From contig JAFRQR010000020.1 in the NCBI GenBank assembly GCA_017428545.1, forward strand, positions 248,001 through 312,000: a DNA stretch of 64,000 nt. The letters run 5' to 3'. Made by a program: the position numbers and the translations under genes. Shown here piece after piece: positions 50,624-64,000 of the stretch. The number at the start of each line of letters is the position of its first letter. Position 1 is the stretch's first letter. This DNA is from Clostridiales bacterium. Its GTDB lineage: Bacteria; Bacillota; Clostridia; Saccharofermentanales; Saccharofermentanaceae. The notes below the pieces were generated by a model, which was not told where the DNA came from, searched no databases, and saw only the letters and a list, made by a program, of their open reading frames with translations.

Positions 50624-51076
50624 ATGAAGACAGTTAAGAAAATGGCTGCTATCGTTCTCGTAGGTGCTATGGCTCTTTCCATCGCAGCTTGCAAGAAGGG
50701 TGCAAAGAAGGTATCCGCTGATGATTTCAAGAAGGCTTGTGAAGAAGTTGGCCTGACAGTTACCGAAGGCAGCGAGGAAGGTCTGAAGCAGTCTATCGGA
50801 GCTAAGAACGAAGATGATTCTCTCGACGTTGCTTATATGCAGGCTGAGAGCACAGACGATGCTAAGGAAGGTTTCGAATACTTCACAAGCAGCGTTGATT
50901 CCCTTGAGGCTATGGGCGCTAAGGTTGATAAGAGCAGCACAAAGATCGAGGCTGAAGTAGAAGGCACGATGTTCATGTATGCTGTACGCGCTGATGATAC
51001 GATCATCACAATCTCTGCTGCCGGCGAAGAGCAGGTCAACACAGCTAAGGATCTCGTTAAGAAGCTCGGTATCTAA
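50624..51076 (+). CDS. Small lipoprotein, paralogue 1
   Basis: 150 residues. Lipoprotein signal with lipobox IAAC (Cys at 23). The mature part (VSADDFKKACEEVGLTV..., then AGEEQVNTAKDLVKKLGI) has two beta-alpha units and no named domain. It shares start, signal and tail with the gene at 51271, so the two arose by tandem duplication. It has its own terminator. A TATAAT-like box lies about 90 bp upstream. Function unknown. Confidence 0.8.
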   Translation: MKTVKKMAAIVLVGAMALSIAACKKGAKKVSADDFKKACEEVGLTVTEGSEEGLKQSIGAKNEDDSLDVAYMQAESTDDAKEGFEYFTSSVDSLEAMGAKVDKSSTKIEAEVEGTMFMYAVRADDTIITISAAGEEQVNTAKDLVKKLGI

Positions 51077-51270: not shown

Positions 51271-51723
51271 ATGAAAACAGTAAGAAAACTGGCAGCGATC
51301 GTTCTTGTAGGTGCAATGGCTCTTTCCATCGCAGCTTGTAAGAAGAGCGCTAAGAAGGTTTCTGCCGATGAATTCGTCAGTGCATGTAACGAAGTCGGAC
51401 TGATCATTGAAAATCTCGGTGGCGGCAAGGGCATTAAAGAAGCATGGGGCGGACAGAGTTCCGACGGTTCTTTGGAAGCAAATTACGTCATCGTTGAGGA
51501 CAAATCCGCGGCCAAAGAAGAATTCAAAATGTACACGGATATGGAAGATACCTTCAAGGCTATGGGTGCTGACGTTAAAATGAGCAGTAACAGAATGGAA
51601 ATGTCCATGAACGACAACTACATGCTCGCAGTTCTTGCAGATGACATGATGATCTCCATCAGCAGTCAGGGTGCTGAAAGTACCGAAGCTGCCAAGAAGA
51701 TCGTTGAAAAACTCGGCATCTGA
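51271..51723 (+). CDS. Small lipoprotein, paralogue 2
   Basis: 150 residues, same length as the 50624 protein. The first 35 residues are nearly identical (MKTVRKLAAIVLVGAMALSI..., lipobox IAAC), and both end in KK-LGI. The middle differs, with Met-rich segments (MSSNRMEMSMNDNYMLAVLA). It therefore looks like a diverged duplicate under relaxed or changed selection in the mature domain. It also has its own terminator, with a stem similar to that of copy 1. Function unknown. Confidence 0.8.
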   Translation: MKTVRKLAAIVLVGAMALSIAACKKSAKKVSADEFVSACNEVGLIIENLGGGKGIKEAWGGQSSDGSLEANYVIVEDKSAAKEEFKMYTDMEDTFKAMGADVKMSSNRMEMSMNDNYMLAVLADDMMISISSQGAESTEAAKKIVEKLGI

Positions 51724-56463: not shown

Positions 56464-57822
56464 ATGGAACTAATGGTGCGTCTTTATATCGATCCGGGTA
56501 CGGGTGGAATGCTTTTCACCGTCTTCTTTGCTATATTCGGTGTTGTCTTCTTCTCCGCGAGAACCGCTTATGATAAGCTGAAATTCAAGATCAGCGGCGG
56601 TAAACAGGCCAAGATCAGCAAGGAGAAGATCCCGCTCGTTATCTTTTCCGACCACAAAAGATACTGGACGACTTTTGAGCCGATCGCAGATGAGCTCGAG
56701 AAAAGACAGAAAAAGACCGTCTATCTCACCTGCTCCAAGGATGATCCGGCGCTTTCCAAGAAATACGAATACATCACCTGTGAATACATCGGTGAAGGCA
56801 ACAAAGCCTTTGCCAAGCTCAATGTCCTAAATGCGGCCGTCGTTCTTTCGACAACGCCGAGCCTGGACGTTTTCCAGTGGAAGCGCAGCACGAACGTCAA
56901 CTGCTATATCCACATCCCGCACGCGGCAAGTGACATCACGCTCTATCGCATGTTCGGCATCGACCATTACGACGCATTTATTCTTTCCGGCGAGTACCAG
57001 GAAAAACAGATCCGGAAACTCGAAGAACTCCGCAATATCAAGCCACGTGACATCGAGCTTTGCGGCATTCCTTACATGGACGAGATGAAGAAACGCCTCG
57101 AAAGCCGAAAAGACGCTCCAAAACACGACCGGACAGTGCTTTTGGCGCCGTCGTGGGGCGAAAGCGGAATCCTTTCCCGATTCGGTGAAAAGCTCATCGA
57201 TTCCCTCATCGCGACCGGCTACAAGGTCATCGTCAGGCCGCATCCGCAGTCTTTTACCTCGGAAAAAGCACTGGTCGACAAACTCATGGAGAAATATAAC
57301 GACACATCGAAAGTCACCTGGAACCGGGATAATGACAACTTCGACGTGCTTTATAATTCCGACATCCTGATCTCGGATTTTTCGGGCGTCATGTTCGACT
57401 ATACGCTCGTTTTCGATAAGCCCATCCTCTACACGAATACGGACTTTAAGAAAAATCCGTACGATGCATTCTGGATCGACGAGCCGCTCTGGACATTTGA
57501 GATCCTGCCGTCTCTTGGCCTTGAACTGAATGATGAAAATGCATCTCACGTCAAAGACCTGATCGACAAGTGCATCGAGGATTCGTCTTTTGCCGAAGGT
57601 CGTGATAAAGCACGATCCGAGACGTGGGTCCATATCGGTGAAGGCGCAGAAAGATCGGCCGATTTCATTTTGAAAAAGCTCGATGAAGTAACGGCGCTGA
57701 TCGCTGCCGAAGAAGAGGCCAAGGAAAAAAAGAAAAAACACGGCAAAAAGGCGGCCTCAAAAAAGCCGGAAAATACTGAAGATAAATCTTCTCCGAAAAA
57801 GAAGAAAAAGAAGGAGGTGTGA
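56464..57822 (+). CDS. CDP-glycerol glycerophosphotransferase-like protein, copy 1
   Basis: 452 residues from the ATG at 56464; the start matches the copy-2 protein residue for residue (M..., then LYIDPGTGGMLFTV). The N-terminus has a YIDPGTGG motif and one transmembrane helix. The TagB/TagF-type domain follows: VLLAPSWGESGILSRFG near 226, RPHPQSFTS near 262 with the catalytic His, and DILISDFSGVMFDYTLVFDKPI near 302. This fold transfers glycerol phosphate or similar from CDP-linked donors in teichoic-acid synthesis. The C-terminal 45 residues are a Lys-rich tail. The next gene starts 6 bp later. Confidence 0.88.
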   Translation: MELMVRLYIDPGTGGMLFTVFFAIFGVVFFSARTAYDKLKFKISGGKQAKISKEKIPLVIFSDHKRYWTTFEPIADELEKRQKKTVYLTCSKDDPALSKKYEYITCEYIGEGNKAFAKLNVLNAAVVLSTTPSLDVFQWKRSTNVNCYIHIPHAASDITLYRMFGIDHYDAFILSGEYQEKQIRKLEELRNIKPRDIELCGIPYMDEMKKRLESRKDAPKHDRTVLLAPSWGESGILSRFGEKLIDSLIATGYKVIVRPHPQSFTSEKALVDKLMEKYNDTSKVTWNRDNDNFDVLYNSDILISDFSGVMFDYTLVFDKPILYTNTDFKKNPYDAFWIDEPLWTFEILPSLGLELNDENASHVKDLIDKCIEDSSFAEGRDKARSETWVHIGEGAERSADFILKKLDEVTALIAAEEEAKEKKKKHGKKAASKKPENTEDKSSPKKKKKKEV

Positions 57823-57828
57823 TCGGGT

Positions 57829-60615
57829 ATGTCATTTCTATCTGCTATCTACACCATCGCGATCACTCCGATCGAGCTTCTTCTCGAAGTGATATTCACG
57901 CTTGCAAATAAGGTCATCGGGAACACCGGTCTTTCGATCATATTCCTGAGTCTTGCCGTCAACTTCCTCGTGCTGCCTCTTTACATCCGCGCGGATGAAC
58001 TGCAGAACGAAGAGCGCGAGATCCAGAAAAAGATGGCGTTCCATATCAAGAACATTAAAAAGACGTTTAAAGGAAACGAACAGTTCCTGATGCTTCAGGA
58101 ATACTACCGCATCAATAACTATAAGCCGATATACGCGCTAAAAAGTACGACTTCCCTGCTCCTTCAGATCCCGTTCTTTATCGCGGCTTATAACCTTCTT
58201 TCTCATATGCAGAGCCTGCAGGGCATGTCCTTTTGGTTCATCAAAGATCTCGGAAAAGAAGACGCCGCCTTCATGATCGGATCTTTTGCGGTCAACATCC
58301 TGCCGATCCTTATGACGGTGATCAATATCGTTTCGGGTATCATCTACACCAAAGGTCATCCGGTAAAGGAAAAGATCCAGATCTACGGCCTTGCGCTGAT
58401 CTTCCTGGTACTCCTTTACCACTCGCCGGCAGGACTTGTTTTCTACTGGCTCCTCAACAATGTTTTCTCACTTCTGAAGAACATCTTCTATAAGCTTAAG
58501 GACCCGAAGAAAACGCTTTCCGTTATCTTTGCGGTTGCCGGCATTGCCGCGGCCATCCATACCCTTACGAGAGCAGATTTCGGTCCAAGACAGAAATCCC
58601 TTCTCTGCTTCTGCTGTTTCCTTATGATCCTCCCGTTTTTGTCGGGACTTTCCAAGAAGGAAAGAAAAGCACGTCCGAAAGACTATATCGTTTTCGTTTG
58701 CGGCGCTGTTTTCCTGACACTCGTTACGGGTTTCCTCATCCCGTCCGCGGTTATCGGTGATTCTGTTGCGGAATTTTATGACTCATTTCATCTTTCGAAT
58801 CCTGCTCTTTATCTTCTCCATTCGGGACTCATCGCATTTGGTACCTTCGTGGTATGGGGCAGCATTTTCTACTTCTTCATGAGCGATAGGGTCAAGGCCT
58901 TCTTCAGCGACGGCATCTGGATCATCTGCGGAACGGGGATCGCTAACTACATGCTGTTCGGTAGAAATCTCGGCATCCTTTCTTCTAGTCTCCGCTACGA
59001 AGACGAGCCTGTTTTCACGAAAAATGAGTATATCATCAATACCCTCGTGGTCTTAGGTATCGCGCTTGCCATGCATTTCTTCTACATCAAGCTCCATAAG
59101 ATCGCCCGAGGCATCCTTATCGCGGGAGCAATAGCTGTCATTCCGCTCTTCTTCACAAACTTCGACGTGATCTGGACAACATATCAGGAAGATTCCTTCT
59201 ACTTTACACGTTATGTATCAGGTAAAACGCCTTCTGTCCAGCTCAGCACGGAAGGCCAGAATGTCATCGTCCTGATGCTCGACCGCGCCATCGGTCCGCA
59301 GGTCCCGTACATTTTTAAAGAAAAGCCGGAACTTGCCGAAAAGTTTGACGGATTCACCTATTACCAGAACACGGTCTCTTTCGGCAGTCACACGAATATC
59401 GCGGCACCGGCGCTTTTCGGCGGGTATGAGTACACACCGAAAGAGCTGAATAAAAGAGACACCGAGCTTCTCGAGGATAAGCACAACGAGGCACTGAAAG
59501 TGATGCCGGTGCTTTTCGGTGAGAACGGATACGACGTCACGATCTGCGATCCGCCGTACGCAGGCTATTCCTGGAATCCGGATCTTTCGATCTATGACGA
59601 TCATCCGGAATTCCACTGCTACAACACGACCGGCTATTTCGACTATTTCAATGGTTCTGAGGAGTCCAAAGAACTGATGGCTCAGGTCGACGAAGTCCGA
59701 AACAGAAACTTCTTCTTCTACTCGCTTACGAAGATCGCGCCACTTGTCATGCACCATACACTCTATGACAACGGTGCCTATAACGACTCCAAGTTTTCGG
59801 GCAAGGGCGAGATGACGATCGCCTCGATCCAGTATAACGACGGCATTTCGAAAAGCACCGGATACGATCCGGACTTCTTGAATTCGTTCGCTGTTCTTAC
59901 TCACCTTAAAGACCTGACCACGATCACGGACGACCCGCAGAATACTTTCCTCATGATGGCCAACGATACGACTCACCAGCAGTGTCTCCTTCAGAAACCG
60001 GATTACATGCCGGCACTTGTCGTCGACAACACCGCATACGATGTGGATCTTCAGAATCAGCCGCAGTTTCAGGTCGACGGAAGAAAGATGAAGATGCGTT
60101 CCTACACGCAGGTATCGCACTATCACATCAACATGGCCGCGTTTCTGCAGCTCGGCGAATGGTTCGACTACCTCAGGGAAATGGGCGTTTACGACAATAC
60201 CCGAATCATCCTCGTTTCCGACCACGGCTACGAATGCGGAAGTTTCGGCCTTTCCTGCCATGCGTTTAGGATGAGTGGCGACAGAACCTCAAGTTTCGAT
60301 GAAGATGTCGAGTTTTACATGCCGCTTCTTATGGTCAAAGACTTTAACGCCACCGGCTTTACGGTCAACAAGGACTTCATGACCAATGCCGATACCCCGG
60401 CGCTCGCGACGGAAGGGATCATCGAAGATCCGACAAATCCGTTTACCGGGAATCCGCTTATAACTGATGCCAAAGACGAGCCGCAGTATATCCTTTCGAC
60501 CACACACTGGAGCATCTATGTCAACAACGGAGAACAGTTCATGGAGGACTCCTGGTTCACGGTTTCGGACGATCCGTACGATATCAAGAACTGGAAGTAT
60601 GTCGGAGAGGGCTGA
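57829..60615 (+). CDS. YidC/Oxa1-sulfatase fusion protein, copy 1
   Basis: 928 residues in three parts. (a) Residues 1-220 follow the YidC/Oxa1 layout: GLSIIFLSLAVNFLVLPLY, then a basic cytoplasmic helical hairpin, then SLLLQIPFFIAAYNLL, then SPAGLVFYWLLNNVFSLL. (b) Residues about 230-455 add roughly seven helices. (c) Residues about 475-880 are an extracytoplasmic alkaline-phosphatase/sulfatase-type domain. It has VIVLMLDRAIG with a metal Asp at 485, GSHTNIAAPALFGG with a candidate nucleophile Thr at 522, and VSDHGYECG with metal Asp/His at 798/799. The groove Arg of YidC is Asn45 here. A role as LtaS-like phosphoglycerol transferase coupled to membrane transfer is inferred. Confidence 0.85.
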   Translation: MSFLSAIYTIAITPIELLLEVIFTLANKVIGNTGLSIIFLSLAVNFLVLPLYIRADELQNEEREIQKKMAFHIKNIKKTFKGNEQFLMLQEYYRINNYKPIYALKSTTSLLLQIPFFIAAYNLLSHMQSLQGMSFWFIKDLGKEDAAFMIGSFAVNILPILMTVINIVSGIIYTKGHPVKEKIQIYGLALIFLVLLYHSPAGLVFYWLLNNVFSLLKNIFYKLKDPKKTLSVIFAVAGIAAAIHTLTRADFGPRQKSLLCFCCFLMILPFLSGLSKKERKARPKDYIVFVCGAVFLTLVTGFLIPSAVIGDSVAEFYDSFHLSNPALYLLHSGLIAFGTFVVWGSIFYFFMSDRVKAFFSDGIWIICGTGIANYMLFGRNLGILSSSLRYEDEPVFTKNEYIINTLVVLGIALAMHFFYIKLHKIARGILIAGAIAVIPLFFTNFDVIWTTYQEDSFYFTRYVSGKTPSVQLSTEGQNVIVLMLDRAIGPQVPYIFKEKPELAEKFDGFTYYQNTVSFGSHTNIAAPALFGGYEYTPKELNKRDTELLEDKHNEALKVMPVLFGENGYDVTICDPPYAGYSWNPDLSIYDDHPEFHCYNTTGYFDYFNGSEESKELMAQVDEVRNRNFFFYSLTKIAPLVMHHTLYDNGAYNDSKFSGKGEMTIASIQYNDGISKSTGYDPDFLNSFAVLTHLKDLTTITDDPQNTFLMMANDTTHQQCLLQKPDYMPALVVDNTAYDVDLQNQPQFQVDGRKMKMRSYTQVSHYHINMAAFLQLGEWFDYLREMGVYDNTRIILVSDHGYECGSFGLSCHAFRMSGDRTSSFDEDVEFYMPLLMVKDFNATGFTVNKDFMTNADTPALATEGIIEDPTNPFTGNPLITDAKDEPQYILSTTHWSIYVNNGEQFMEDSWFTVSDDPYDIKNWKYVGEG

Positions 60616-60707
60616 TCTGCGCTTTCATTGCAATAATATATAGTTCGTTATAAAATATTTGTTTGTGAATGGACGCGTAAGTGCAAATTGCCATTCTGGA
60701 GGGTTTT

Positions 60708-62054
60708 GTGGCTGATCATATGATTCTGTATATCGATCCGGGCACGGGAGGCATGCTCTTTACCGTCATGTTCGCGGTATTCGGCGTTCTGTTTTTCTCC
60801 CTTCACGCTCTTTTCGATAAAATGAAGTTTCGACTGAGCGGCGGAAAAACGGCCAAGATGTCCGGCGAAAAATACCCTCTCGTCATCTTTTCCGACCATA
60901 AGAGATACTGGAACACCTTCGAACCGATCGTCGAAGAACTCGAAAAGCAGAAGCAGAAGACTGTGTATATGACCTGTTCCGAAGATGATCCGGCGTTCGA
61001 CAAAAAGTACGAATATATCACATGCGAATATATCGGCGAGGGAAATAAAGCTTTTGCCAAGCTCAACGGCCTCAATGCTTCCGTCGTTTTCTCGACGACC
61101 CCGAGCCTTGACGTTTTCCAGTGGAAGCGCAGCAAGAACGTAGACTGCTATATCCACATCATGCACGCGGCCAAAGACATCACGATGTACAGGATGTTCG
61201 GCACCGACCACTACGATTCCTTTATCCTTTCGGGAGAACTTCAGGTCAGACAGATCCGCCAGCTCGAAAAGCTGCGCGGCATTCCGGAAAGAGATTATGA
61301 CTTAAGCGGCGTTCCTTATCTCGATGAGATGAAAAAACGCGTAGACTCTGCAGATCCCGTTCCTCCTCACGAGAGAACCGTGCTTCTCGCGCCGTCGTGG
61401 GGCGAAAGCGGCATCCTTTCAAGATTCGGCGAAAAACTCATCGACTCTCTCATCGCGACAGGATATAAGCTCATCGTAAGGCCGCATCCGCAGTCTTTCA
61501 CTTCGGAAAAAGAACTGATCGACAGACTGATGAAGAAGTATTCCGACACCTCGAAAGTCACCTGGAATTCCGATATCGACAACTTCGACGTACTCATGAA
61601 GTCCGACATTCTGATCTCGGACTATTCCGGTGTCATGTTCGAATTCGCGATGGTCTTCGACAAGCCGATCATCTACACAGATACCAAGTTTGATCCTCGT
61701 CCTTACGATGCCGACTGGATCGACGAGACACCGTGGACTTTCAGCATTCTCCCGTCCTTAGGTCCTGAACTGAACGACGAAAATGCCGGTAATATCAAGG
61801 AACTGATCGACAAGTGCATCGATGACAAGTCCTACCTCGAAGGAAGACAAAAAGCCCGTGAGGATATCTGGGTCAACATCGGCGAAAGCGCTAAGAGATC
61901 CGCCGACTTTATCATTAAGAAGGTCAACGAGATCGAGGATCGGGCGGCAAAAAAGGCAATGCAGGAAAAGATCGAGAAAAAGAAACAGCTCGAGGAGAAA
62001 ATGAAAAAAAGCACAAAGAAGCCTCTTTCTAAGGAAAAGGAGGTGAAAGCATAA
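60708..62054 (+). CDS. CDP-glycerol glycerophosphotransferase-like protein, copy 2
   Basis: 448 residues from GTG 60708; GGAGGG lies four bases upstream, and this start aligns exactly with copy 1. The same motifs are present: LYIDPGTGGMLFTVMFAVFG, LLAPSWGESGILSRFG, RPHPQSFTS and DILISDYSGVMFEFAMVFDK. Identity to copy 1 is high over the whole domain and lower in the Lys-rich tail (KKKQLEEKMKKSTKKPLS). The stop overlaps the next ATG (TAATG), stronger coupling than in copy 1. A short gap of 92 bp separates it from copy 1 of the fusion. Confidence 0.88.
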   Translation: MADHMILYIDPGTGGMLFTVMFAVFGVLFFSLHALFDKMKFRLSGGKTAKMSGEKYPLVIFSDHKRYWNTFEPIVEELEKQKQKTVYMTCSEDDPAFDKKYEYITCEYIGEGNKAFAKLNGLNASVVFSTTPSLDVFQWKRSKNVDCYIHIMHAAKDITMYRMFGTDHYDSFILSGELQVRQIRQLEKLRGIPERDYDLSGVPYLDEMKKRVDSADPVPPHERTVLLAPSWGESGILSRFGEKLIDSLIATGYKLIVRPHPQSFTSEKELIDRLMKKYSDTSKVTWNSDIDNFDVLMKSDILISDYSGVMFEFAMVFDKPIIYTDTKFDPRPYDADWIDETPWTFSILPSLGPELNDENAGNIKELIDKCIDDKSYLEGRQKAREDIWVNIGESAKRSADFIIKKVNEIEDRAAKKAMQEKIEKKKQLEEKMKKSTKKPLSKEKEVKA

Positions 62055-64000
62055 TGTCGTTTCTGTCATTTTTGTACCACCTTCTGATCACACCGCTGAT
62101 GCTTCTGTTCGAAGTCATTTTCACGATCGCGAACAGACTGATCGGCAACGAAGGCCTTTCTATCATCGTGCTATCCATCGCCGTAAACTTTCTGGTACTT
62201 CCGCTTTATAAAAGAGCCGACGAACTTCAGGCCGAAGAGCGTGATATCCAGGCGAAGATGGCATATCGTGTCAAAAGGATCAAGCAGACATTCAAAGGTA
62301 ACGAACAGTTCCTGATGCTGCAGGAATACTACCGGATCAACAACTATAAGCCGGTCTACGCGCTGAAAAGCTCCGCTTCCCTTCTTCTTCAGATCCCGTT
62401 CTTCATCGCGGCCTATAGGCTCCTTTCGGGAATGCAGAGCCTGCAGGGCATGTCCTTCGGATTCATCAAGGATCTCGGAAAAGAAGACGCGACCTTCATG
62501 ATCGGATCATTTGCGGTCAACATCCTGCCGATCCTGATGACGCTCATTAACGTCCTGTCCGGTATCCTTTACACCAAAGGCCATCCGACGAAGGAAAAGA
62601 TCCAGGTCTACGGTCTTGCGCTCGTATTCCTCATCCTTCTTTACCATTCTCCGGCGGGACTCGTTTTCTACTGGCTCCTCAACAATGTATTCTCGCTTGT
62701 AAAGAACATCTTCTATAAGCTCAAAGATCCGAAGAAAATTCTCTTCCGCATATTTGCCCTGGCAGGCGCCGCGGTCCTGATCCATACCATCATAAGAAAC
62801 GACTTAAATCTCCGCCAGAAGATCGTTCTTTCGATCGGATGCATCCTTCTGATACTGCCGTTTGTTCTTTCCTTCAAAAAGAACAAGACGGAGAAAAAAG
62901 CACGTCCGAAGGATTATCTTACATTCCTTTTCGGCGCCATCTTCCTGACGCTTGTTACGGGTCTTCTGATCCCTTCTGCCGTCATCAGTTCCTCCGTCGA
63001 GGAATTCTTCAGCATCATTCATATTTCCGACCCGATCAATTACGTCATCCGGACACTTGTCATCGCAAGCGGAACATGGATCGTCTGGGGCAGTATCTTC
63101 TATTTCTTCATGAGCGATCGCAGTAAGTCCTTTTTCAGCGACGGTGTCTGGATATTAAGCGGAACGGCGATCCTCAACTACATGCTGTTCGGCACAAAAC
63201 TCGGCATCCTCTCGTCTGCTCTTCAGTACGAAAACAAACCGGTCTTTTCGGTATCGGAATACCTGATCAACACACTTGCTGTTCTTATTGCCGCTATCGT
63301 ATTGCATCTGGTCTATACGCATTTCCACAAGATCTCCAGGATCATCCTGATCGCCGGCTGCGTGGCCATTTTCCCGGTCGCACTCGGAAACATCAATATC
63401 ATCCGGGTCATTTACGATGCGAAGACGGAATACTACTTCCAATACATCGAAGGAAAAGAGCCTTCGTTTGAACTGAGCAAAGACGGCCGGAACGTCATCG
63501 TCCTGATGCTCGACCGCGCGCTGGGTCAGCAGGTTCCGTACATCATGAACGAAAAACCGGAGCTTGTCGAAAAGTTCGACGGCTTTACCTACTACCCGAA
63601 TACGATCTCCTTCGGCGGACACACAAACATGGCCTTACCGGCGCTTTTCGGCGGGTATGAGTATACTCCGGACCGCATTAACCAGCGAAACAGCGAGCTT
63701 CTCGTGGACAAGCACAACGAGGCAATTCGCGTCCTGCCGGTGCTTTTCGGCCAGAACGGATATGAGGTCACGATCTGCGATCCGAAGTACGCGGGATATT
63801 CCTGGGATCCGGATCTTTCGATCTACGACGACCATCCGGAATTTAACTGCTATATCACAGAAGGATACTATGACTATTTCGAAGATCAGGAAGAAGCGGG
63901 ATCGGCCATAGAACGTGTTGACACAGTCCGTAACCGTAACTTCTTCTTCTTCTCACTTATGAAGATCGCACCTGTCCTTCTGCAGGATACGATTTATGAT
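62054..64000 (+). CDS. YidC/Oxa1-sulfatase fusion protein, copy 2 (3' end outside window)
   Basis: The frame opens at ATG 62054 (AAAGGAGGTGAAAGCATA upstream) and is still open at base 64000 after 649 codons. It matches copy 1 throughout: MSFLSFLYHLLITPLMLLFE, GLSIIVLSIAVNFLVLPLYK (Asn45 again), SLLLQIPFFIAAYRLL, and SPAGLVFYWLLNNVFSL. The sulfatase part has VIVLMLDRALG with Asp487 and GGHTNMALPALFGGYEYTP. The metal-site DH motif lies beyond the window. Conserved sulfatase-part sequence but a diverged middle-membrane part suggests two substrates or two polymers. Confidence 0.85.
   Translation, partial: MSFLSFLYHLLITPLMLLFEVIFTIANRLIGNEGLSIIVLSIAVNFLVLPLYKRADELQAEERDIQAKMAYRVKRIKQTFKGNEQFLMLQEYYRINNYKPVYALKSSASLLLQIPFFIAAYRLLSGMQSLQGMSFGFIKDLGKEDATFMIGSFAVNILPILMTLINVLSGILYTKGHPTKEKIQVYGLALVFLILLYHSPAGLVFYWLLNNVFSLVKNIFYKLKDPKKILFRIFALAGAAVLIHTIIRNDLNLRQKIVLSIGCILLILPFVLSFKKNKTEKKARPKDYLTFLFGAIFLTLVTGLLIPSAVISSSVEEFFSIIHISDPINYVIRTLVIASGTWIVWGSIFYFFMSDRSKSFFSDGVWILSGTAILNYMLFGTKLGILSSALQYENKPVFSVSEYLINTLAVLIAAIVLHLVYTHFHKISRIILIAGCVAIFPVALGNINIIRVIYDAKTEYYFQYIEGKEPSFELSKDGRNVIVLMLDRALGQQVPYIMNEKPELVEKFDGFTYYPNTISFGGHTNMALPALFGGYEYTPDRINQRNSELLVDKHNEAIRVLPVLFGQNGYEVTICDPKYAGYSWDPDLSIYDDHPEFNCYITEGYYDYFEDQEEAGSAIERVDTVRNRNFFFFSLMKIAPVLLQDTIYD

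Follow-up and report, generated by a model that had tools for sequence, protein, structure and literature searches.

Which function is served by a gene pair that combines a TagF-like transferase with a protein in which a YidC domain is fused to a phosphotransferase domain? Two consecutive copies of such a pair, here designated T1-F1 and T2-F2, are located at the end of the 64-kb stretch of Clostridiales DNA that was analysed (the window). A preliminary description of the locus had proposed that the pair makes, exports and modifies a phosphopolyol surface polymer from CDP-glycerol and that the YidC part was recruited for lipid or polymer passage. The enzymes that load phosphonate or phosphocholine head groups onto the cell surface are largely unknown, and the evidence below indicates that the pair might belong to them.

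Two T-F pairs at the end of the window

All four reading frames are open on the plus strand at the coordinates given in the preliminary description. T1 (56464..57822, 452 aa) is separated by 6 bases from F1 (57829..60615, 928 aa). T2 (60708..62054, 448 aa) starts with GTG, and its stop codon and the start codon of F2 overlap by one base. F2 occupies the plus strand from 62054 to the window end at 64000 and continues beyond it; in the genome it is complete (917 aa, C16:310054-312808). T1 and T2 share 71% and F1 and F2 66% identical residues. Since, in addition, the pair recurs across many genomes, the T1/F1 and T2/F2 arrangement is not due to chance. The same recurrence rules out that the pair is unique to one strain. 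The tandem duplication suggested earlier is borne out by the two adjacent pairs, but these represent only two of six genomic F copies and are the smaller part of the story. A further local duplication in the window comprises two similar neighbouring genes for lipoprotein-like proteins of 150 aa (50624-51076 and 51271-51723).

Altogether, the host genome encodes six F and four T (PF04464) proteins, and each T gene adjoins an F gene. Two host F genes without adjacent T, L013:8044-10851 and L012:7113-9737, may borrow T from elsewhere. In L013, the gene that follows F was considered as a diverged T and ruled out, as it has no Pfam match and only 19% identity.

Domain composition of the fusion protein F

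The composition of F1 was derived from Pfam searches, structure superposition and an AlphaFold2 model built from 64 relatives (pLDDT 89.3, pTM 0.85). Residues 1-222 (57829..58494) adopt a YidC/Oxa1 fold according to Pfam, alignment and superposition. The 60KD_IMP/YidC profile (PF02096) matches residues 34-221 of F1 with 8.2e-23 and F2 with 2.2e-22. In the model, this part superposes on YidC 3wo7 with Z 18.2 (rmsd 2.8, 208 aligned residues) and, with Z about 18, on Bacillus and E. coli YidC. An extra helical hairpin follows at residues 226-284 (58504..58680; alignment and model). It is optional, being absent from 7 of 64 aligned F proteins, the shorter family members. Residues 285-465 (58681..59223) comprise five predicted TM helices of the LtaS/EptA/PbgA type in the model, and 6xlp could be aligned with residues 280-928. 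The loops alternate in charge, and from the positive ones the catalytic domain is predicted to face the outside of the cell.

The catalytic domain (residues 474-928, 59248..60612) was assigned to the alkaline-phosphatase superfamily by alignment, Foldseek and superposition. Residues 475-928 of the model superpose on members of this superfamily with Z 18-21: EptC, LtaP and MCR-1 yield Z 18-20, LtaS/LtaP Z 18.5 and phosphonate monoester hydrolases the highest value, Z 21.0, and these Z values do not tell the EptA, LtaS and hydrolase subfamilies apart. The top Foldseek matches are EptA and MCR-1. The Pfam Sulfatase profile reaches 20.9 bits with F1, below the cut-off of 25, and exceeds the threshold in sister F copies (1.4e-08 and 9.7e-07). 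Both assignments made for F in the preliminary description, a YidC-like N-terminus and an alkaline-phosphatase-like C-terminus, are thus confirmed.

Five residues are invariant in all 64 aligned F sequences: Asp485 (59281-59283), Thr522 (59392-59394), His716 (59974-59976), Asp798 (60220-60222) and His799 (60223-60225). The Thr nucleophile, the acidic, Asp and His metal ligands and the further His presumably correspond to the active-site positions of LtaS and EptA. Thr522 is found in a context of the type T-N-x-x-x-P-x-L-x-G-G. A C/S-x-P-x-R formylglycine motif is not present in F, which rules out that F is a sulfatase proper.

The YidC part is the best conserved region of F with a mean majority share of 0.73. 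The column aligned to R366 of E. coli YidC, the groove arginine, contains Asn in 62 and Ser in 2 of the 64 F sequences; in F1, it is Asn45 (57961-57963). The host genome keeps one canonical YidC with the groove Arg in an rnpA-yidC-jag context. Judged by alignment, F carries a YidC-derived domain minus one feature that defines an insertase, since the groove position is Asn or Ser throughout. Lipid passage, already considered in the preliminary description, is plausible and compatible with the published scrambling of lipids by YidC in vitro (PMC10491306). A phospholipid head group is a candidate donor for the catalytic domain.

The TagF-like partner T

T combines the PF04464 family profile (3.8e-16 in T1, 3.9e-15 in T2) with a GT-B fold. 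The best Foldseek match of the T1 model (pLDDT 87) is TagF with CDP-glycerol (3l7k, E 1.3e-12). Superposition on TagF yielded Z 21.7, a value tied with epimerases. The RPHP and SD-x-S (SDFSG) segments align with TarL. At its N-terminus, T1 has the membrane segment LYIDPGTGGMLF (plus strand, within 56464..57822), and in the N-terminal hydrophobic segment of T proteins the motif YIDPGTG is nearly invariant. With the NCBIfam equivalog models for TarF, TarL and TarB, T scores about 18-24 bits, whereas the cut-offs are 500-1000. Relatives of TagF normally extend polymers and do not load lipids, which counts against the lipid loading by T proposed below. The combination of a TagF-type protein with an outward-facing phosphotransferase, as originally described, agrees with the family profile, the GT-B fold and the predicted topology of F.

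Distribution and co-divergence of T and F

The catalytic domain of the F type was found in 96 of 115 genomes of the family, with up to 12 copies, in 12 of 391 genomes of the class and in 3 of 398 of the phylum (among them G318, to which locus L082 belongs). Most of these frames comprise 850-950 aa and were taken as fused; shorter ones were counted by the catalytic domain alone. Carriers include rumen Saccharofermentans, Lachnospiraceae, Oscillospiraceae, a Solobacterium and the diderm Schwartzia succinivorans. T is present in 94 of the 96 F-containing genomes of the family and in none of the 19 F-less ones. In the class sample, it was detected in 11 of 12 genomes with F and in 0 of 379 without. 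Weak T matches (E 1e-52 to 1e-59, long frames) were scored as other TagF proteins. Together with the invariant catalytic residues, these counts support the recurrent two-gene system that had been expected.

Of the 86 F clusters in the fetched loci, 60 include T, the median gap being 2 bp; another 18, which are interior, have no T next to them. The distances of paired T and F proteins correlate (Mantel r 0.83). When partners were swapped within genomes, the mean r was 0.70, and only 10 of 2000 swaps reached the observed value. This means that paired T and F diverge together. Long tandem arrays with up to eight F frames, some of them partial, around one T occur in L017 (whole locus), L033:1197-15046 and G423:C37, which suggests a diversified donor or acceptor. 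A small CAAX-protease-like (Rce1-like) membrane protein is encoded between or before T and F in L047:7378-7989 and L053:593-1315. LCP, PilT and CAAX-protease neighbours occurred in few clades and were kept out of the model.

Head-group activation genes near the pairs

The recurrent third partners of T-F are genes for the activation of head groups, either to CMP-aminoethylphosphonate (PepM, Ppd, transaminase, putative PntC) or to CDP-choline (LicABC); some of them share an operon with the pair. Locus L118 is a co-directional run on a single strand in the order F-T-PntC-AEPT-PepM-Ppd-flippase-LicD, and L110-L112 show the order F-PepM-FeADH-Ppd-T. In the host genome, F-T faces Ppd-PepM-AEPT-PntC on contig C22 (L011). 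In L051, L052 and L054, LicC-LicA-LicB are followed by T-F, and 12 loci contain a LicC-type cytidylyltransferase or a choline kinase relative within the T/F gene run. PEP mutase, phosphonopyruvate decarboxylase and AEP aminotransferase beside the pair (L011, L118) passed the NCBIfam cut-offs. The PntC candidate is an NTP_transferase protein in the expected place that resembles the one from Schwartzia; no dedicated curated model matched it.

In 37 of the 77 genomes in which both genes were listed, pepM is located at most 10 kb from T, compared to 1.1 expected and a maximum of 8 in 100,000 simulations; these 37 genomes are related, and independent events are fewer. In the host's own genus, this applies to 19 of 21 genomes. 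Despite this relatedness, gene order varies among genera, and the choline cases are separate. Twelve of the 96 F genomes lack pepM, and five genomes have pepM without F. Beside the two T-F pairs of the window itself, head-group genes were not found; these pairs would use a conjugate made elsewhere in the genome.

The host genome (98% complete) has no TagD (glycerol-3-phosphate cytidylyltransferase) above cut-off (best TIGR01518 matches 43 and 34 bits vs 165), and neither a choline kinase nor LicD exceeded the cut-offs. In L071, a TagD-like cytidylyltransferase precedes T-F. On contig C25 of the host (L122:730-3054), a 774-aa protein fuses a MobA-like NTP transferase, a TagD-like cytidylyltransferase and an iron alcohol dehydrogenase, possibly a second pathway for a CMP-activated alcohol. 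In L120:14460-18001 and L115:4924-8644, the genes next to T-F encode PepM and, after it, a metallophosphatase, an epimerase and a DUF6564 protein, perhaps a further phosphonate branch.

Proposed mechanism and alternatives

We propose, with a probability of about 0.5, that T and F constitute one surface-decoration module for phosph(on)ate head groups, in which T loads a lipid and F moves the head group outward. In the cytoplasm, enzymes would couple a small phosph(on)ate head group to CMP and so activate it. In the host genome, this conjugate would be CMP-2-aminoethylphosphonate synthesized through PepM-Ppd-transaminase-PntC, in relatives CDP-choline via LicABC or probably CMP-hydroxyethylphosphonate. 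At the inner face, membrane-bound T would use the CMP conjugate to load the head group onto a lipid. The loaded lipid might then cross the membrane through the YidC domain of F that has lost the groove arginine. Outside, the EptA/LtaS-like domain would take the head group onto Thr522 and pass it to a surface glycan or polymer. EptA and MCR-1 move phosphoethanolamine. Aminoethylphosphonate, its phosphonate counterpart, is close in shape and therefore a cargo that fits the fold of F. Weighing against the module are the F clusters that have no T beside them, the incomplete match between F and pepM genomes, the kinship of the 37 genomes, the absence of head-group genes next to the window's own pairs and superposition values that do not separate EptA-type from other enzymes. 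A more specific version is put forward only tentatively: a YidC-family insertase may have evolved into the part of F that flips lipids, so that flipping and transfer are united in a single enzyme. T would load aminoethylphosphonate or phosphocholine onto a carrier lipid inside, which F would flip and discharge outside. If so, T-F would supply the transfer step still missing from phosphonate cell-surface tailoring, and F would be a member of the Oxa1 superfamily with a dedicated lipid-linked substrate.

The polymer proposed in the preliminary description would require T to build a chain of glycerol phosphate or a different polyol phosphate, with a CDP compound as donor, which F would then export and extend like LtaS. 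The PF04464 membership of T and its best Foldseek match, TagF with CDP-glycerol, agree with this, as do the resemblance of F to LtaS/LtaP and the TagD-like gene in L071. However, T remains far under the TarF/TarL/TarB cut-offs, the host has no TagD above cut-off, and the recurrent neighbours yield CMP-phosphonates or CDP-choline. Polymer synthesis is therefore unlikely, and T-F is better explained by decoration with phosph(on)ate head groups.

Two other explanations concern F. Its YidC domain might serve as an insertase or chaperone, either for the membrane part of F or for membrane proteins that are its partners; the catalytic domain would then act on ordinary phospholipids and would not depend on T. 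The clear PF02096 match and YidC fold and the high conservation of this region would be expected in this case, but the groove arginine is replaced in 64 of 64 sequences while the genome keeps a canonical Arg YidC in the rnpA operon, and the close linkage to T would be left unexplained; we regard this explanation as rather improbable. Even less can be said for F as a remodelling hydrolase that strips phosph(on)ate groups outside the cell for T to replace them. Phosphonate monoester hydrolases, which provide the highest superposition matches, use a formylglycine, whereas F resembles phosphotransferases in its invariant Thr and in lacking a C/S-x-P-x-R motif, and its five-helix membrane part is typical of lipid-dependent transferases. 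This role is very improbable. Decoration with phosph(on)ate head groups by T and F together remains the preferred reading.

Comparison with known systems

The T-F module is real, recurrent and undescribed in the open PMC literature searched: neither a YidC-phosphotransferase fusion nor a connection of YidC with teichoic acid, phosphocholine or phosphonate systems was found there. With EptA/MCR-1 and LtaS/LtaP, F shares five predicted TM helices, the extracytoplasmic domain of the alkaline-phosphatase fold, the position of the Thr nucleophile and the Asp/His metal ligands. What sets it apart from these enzymes is the YidC domain at its N-terminus and the TagF-like gene that almost always accompanies it. 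YidC/Oxa1 insertases such as SpoIIIJ and E. coli YidC correspond to F in fold and in the PF02096 match over residues 1-222, but F differs from them by the exchange of the groove Arg for Asn or Ser, by its fusion to a phosphotransferase and by its occurrence in multiple copies beside a canonical YidC. Since F lacks the groove arginine and joins its YidC domain to a lipid-type reaction, it provides a natural test of YidC-fold proteins as dedicated lipid scramblases. T resembles TagF/TarL/TagB (PF04464) in its GT-B fold and in the RPHP and SD-x-S segments. In contrast to them, it carries the nearly invariant YIDPGTG membrane segment, lies below the NCBIfam TarF/TarL/TarB cut-offs and has neighbours that supply CMP-AEP or CDP-choline.

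The T-F loci resemble the Lic and Pnt tailoring pathways with LicA/B/C or PepM, Ppd, AEPT and a putative PntC next to the pair (PMC6697681). In these pathways, PntC synthesizes CMP-AEP and LicC CDP-choline by a shared logic. Bacterial phosphonate genes serve mostly surface tailoring, and the steps past C-P bond formation were termed enigmatic, with only nucleotidyl activation resolved (PMC6697681). The same paper names LicD-like phosphotransferases or glycosyltransferases, and its text mentions neither YidC nor sulfatase genes. With its wide distribution and the physical linkage of its genes, T-F is a concrete candidate for the phosphonate transfer and export steps, common to phosphonate and phosphocholine pathways and to rumen and gut Clostridia and a diderm Negativicute. 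It is carried by many gut and rumen bacteria, and its neighbours suggest that intracellular phosphonate or phosphocholine is loaded onto the cell surface. Within the Lic/Pnt pathways, T-F would take charge of transfer and export.
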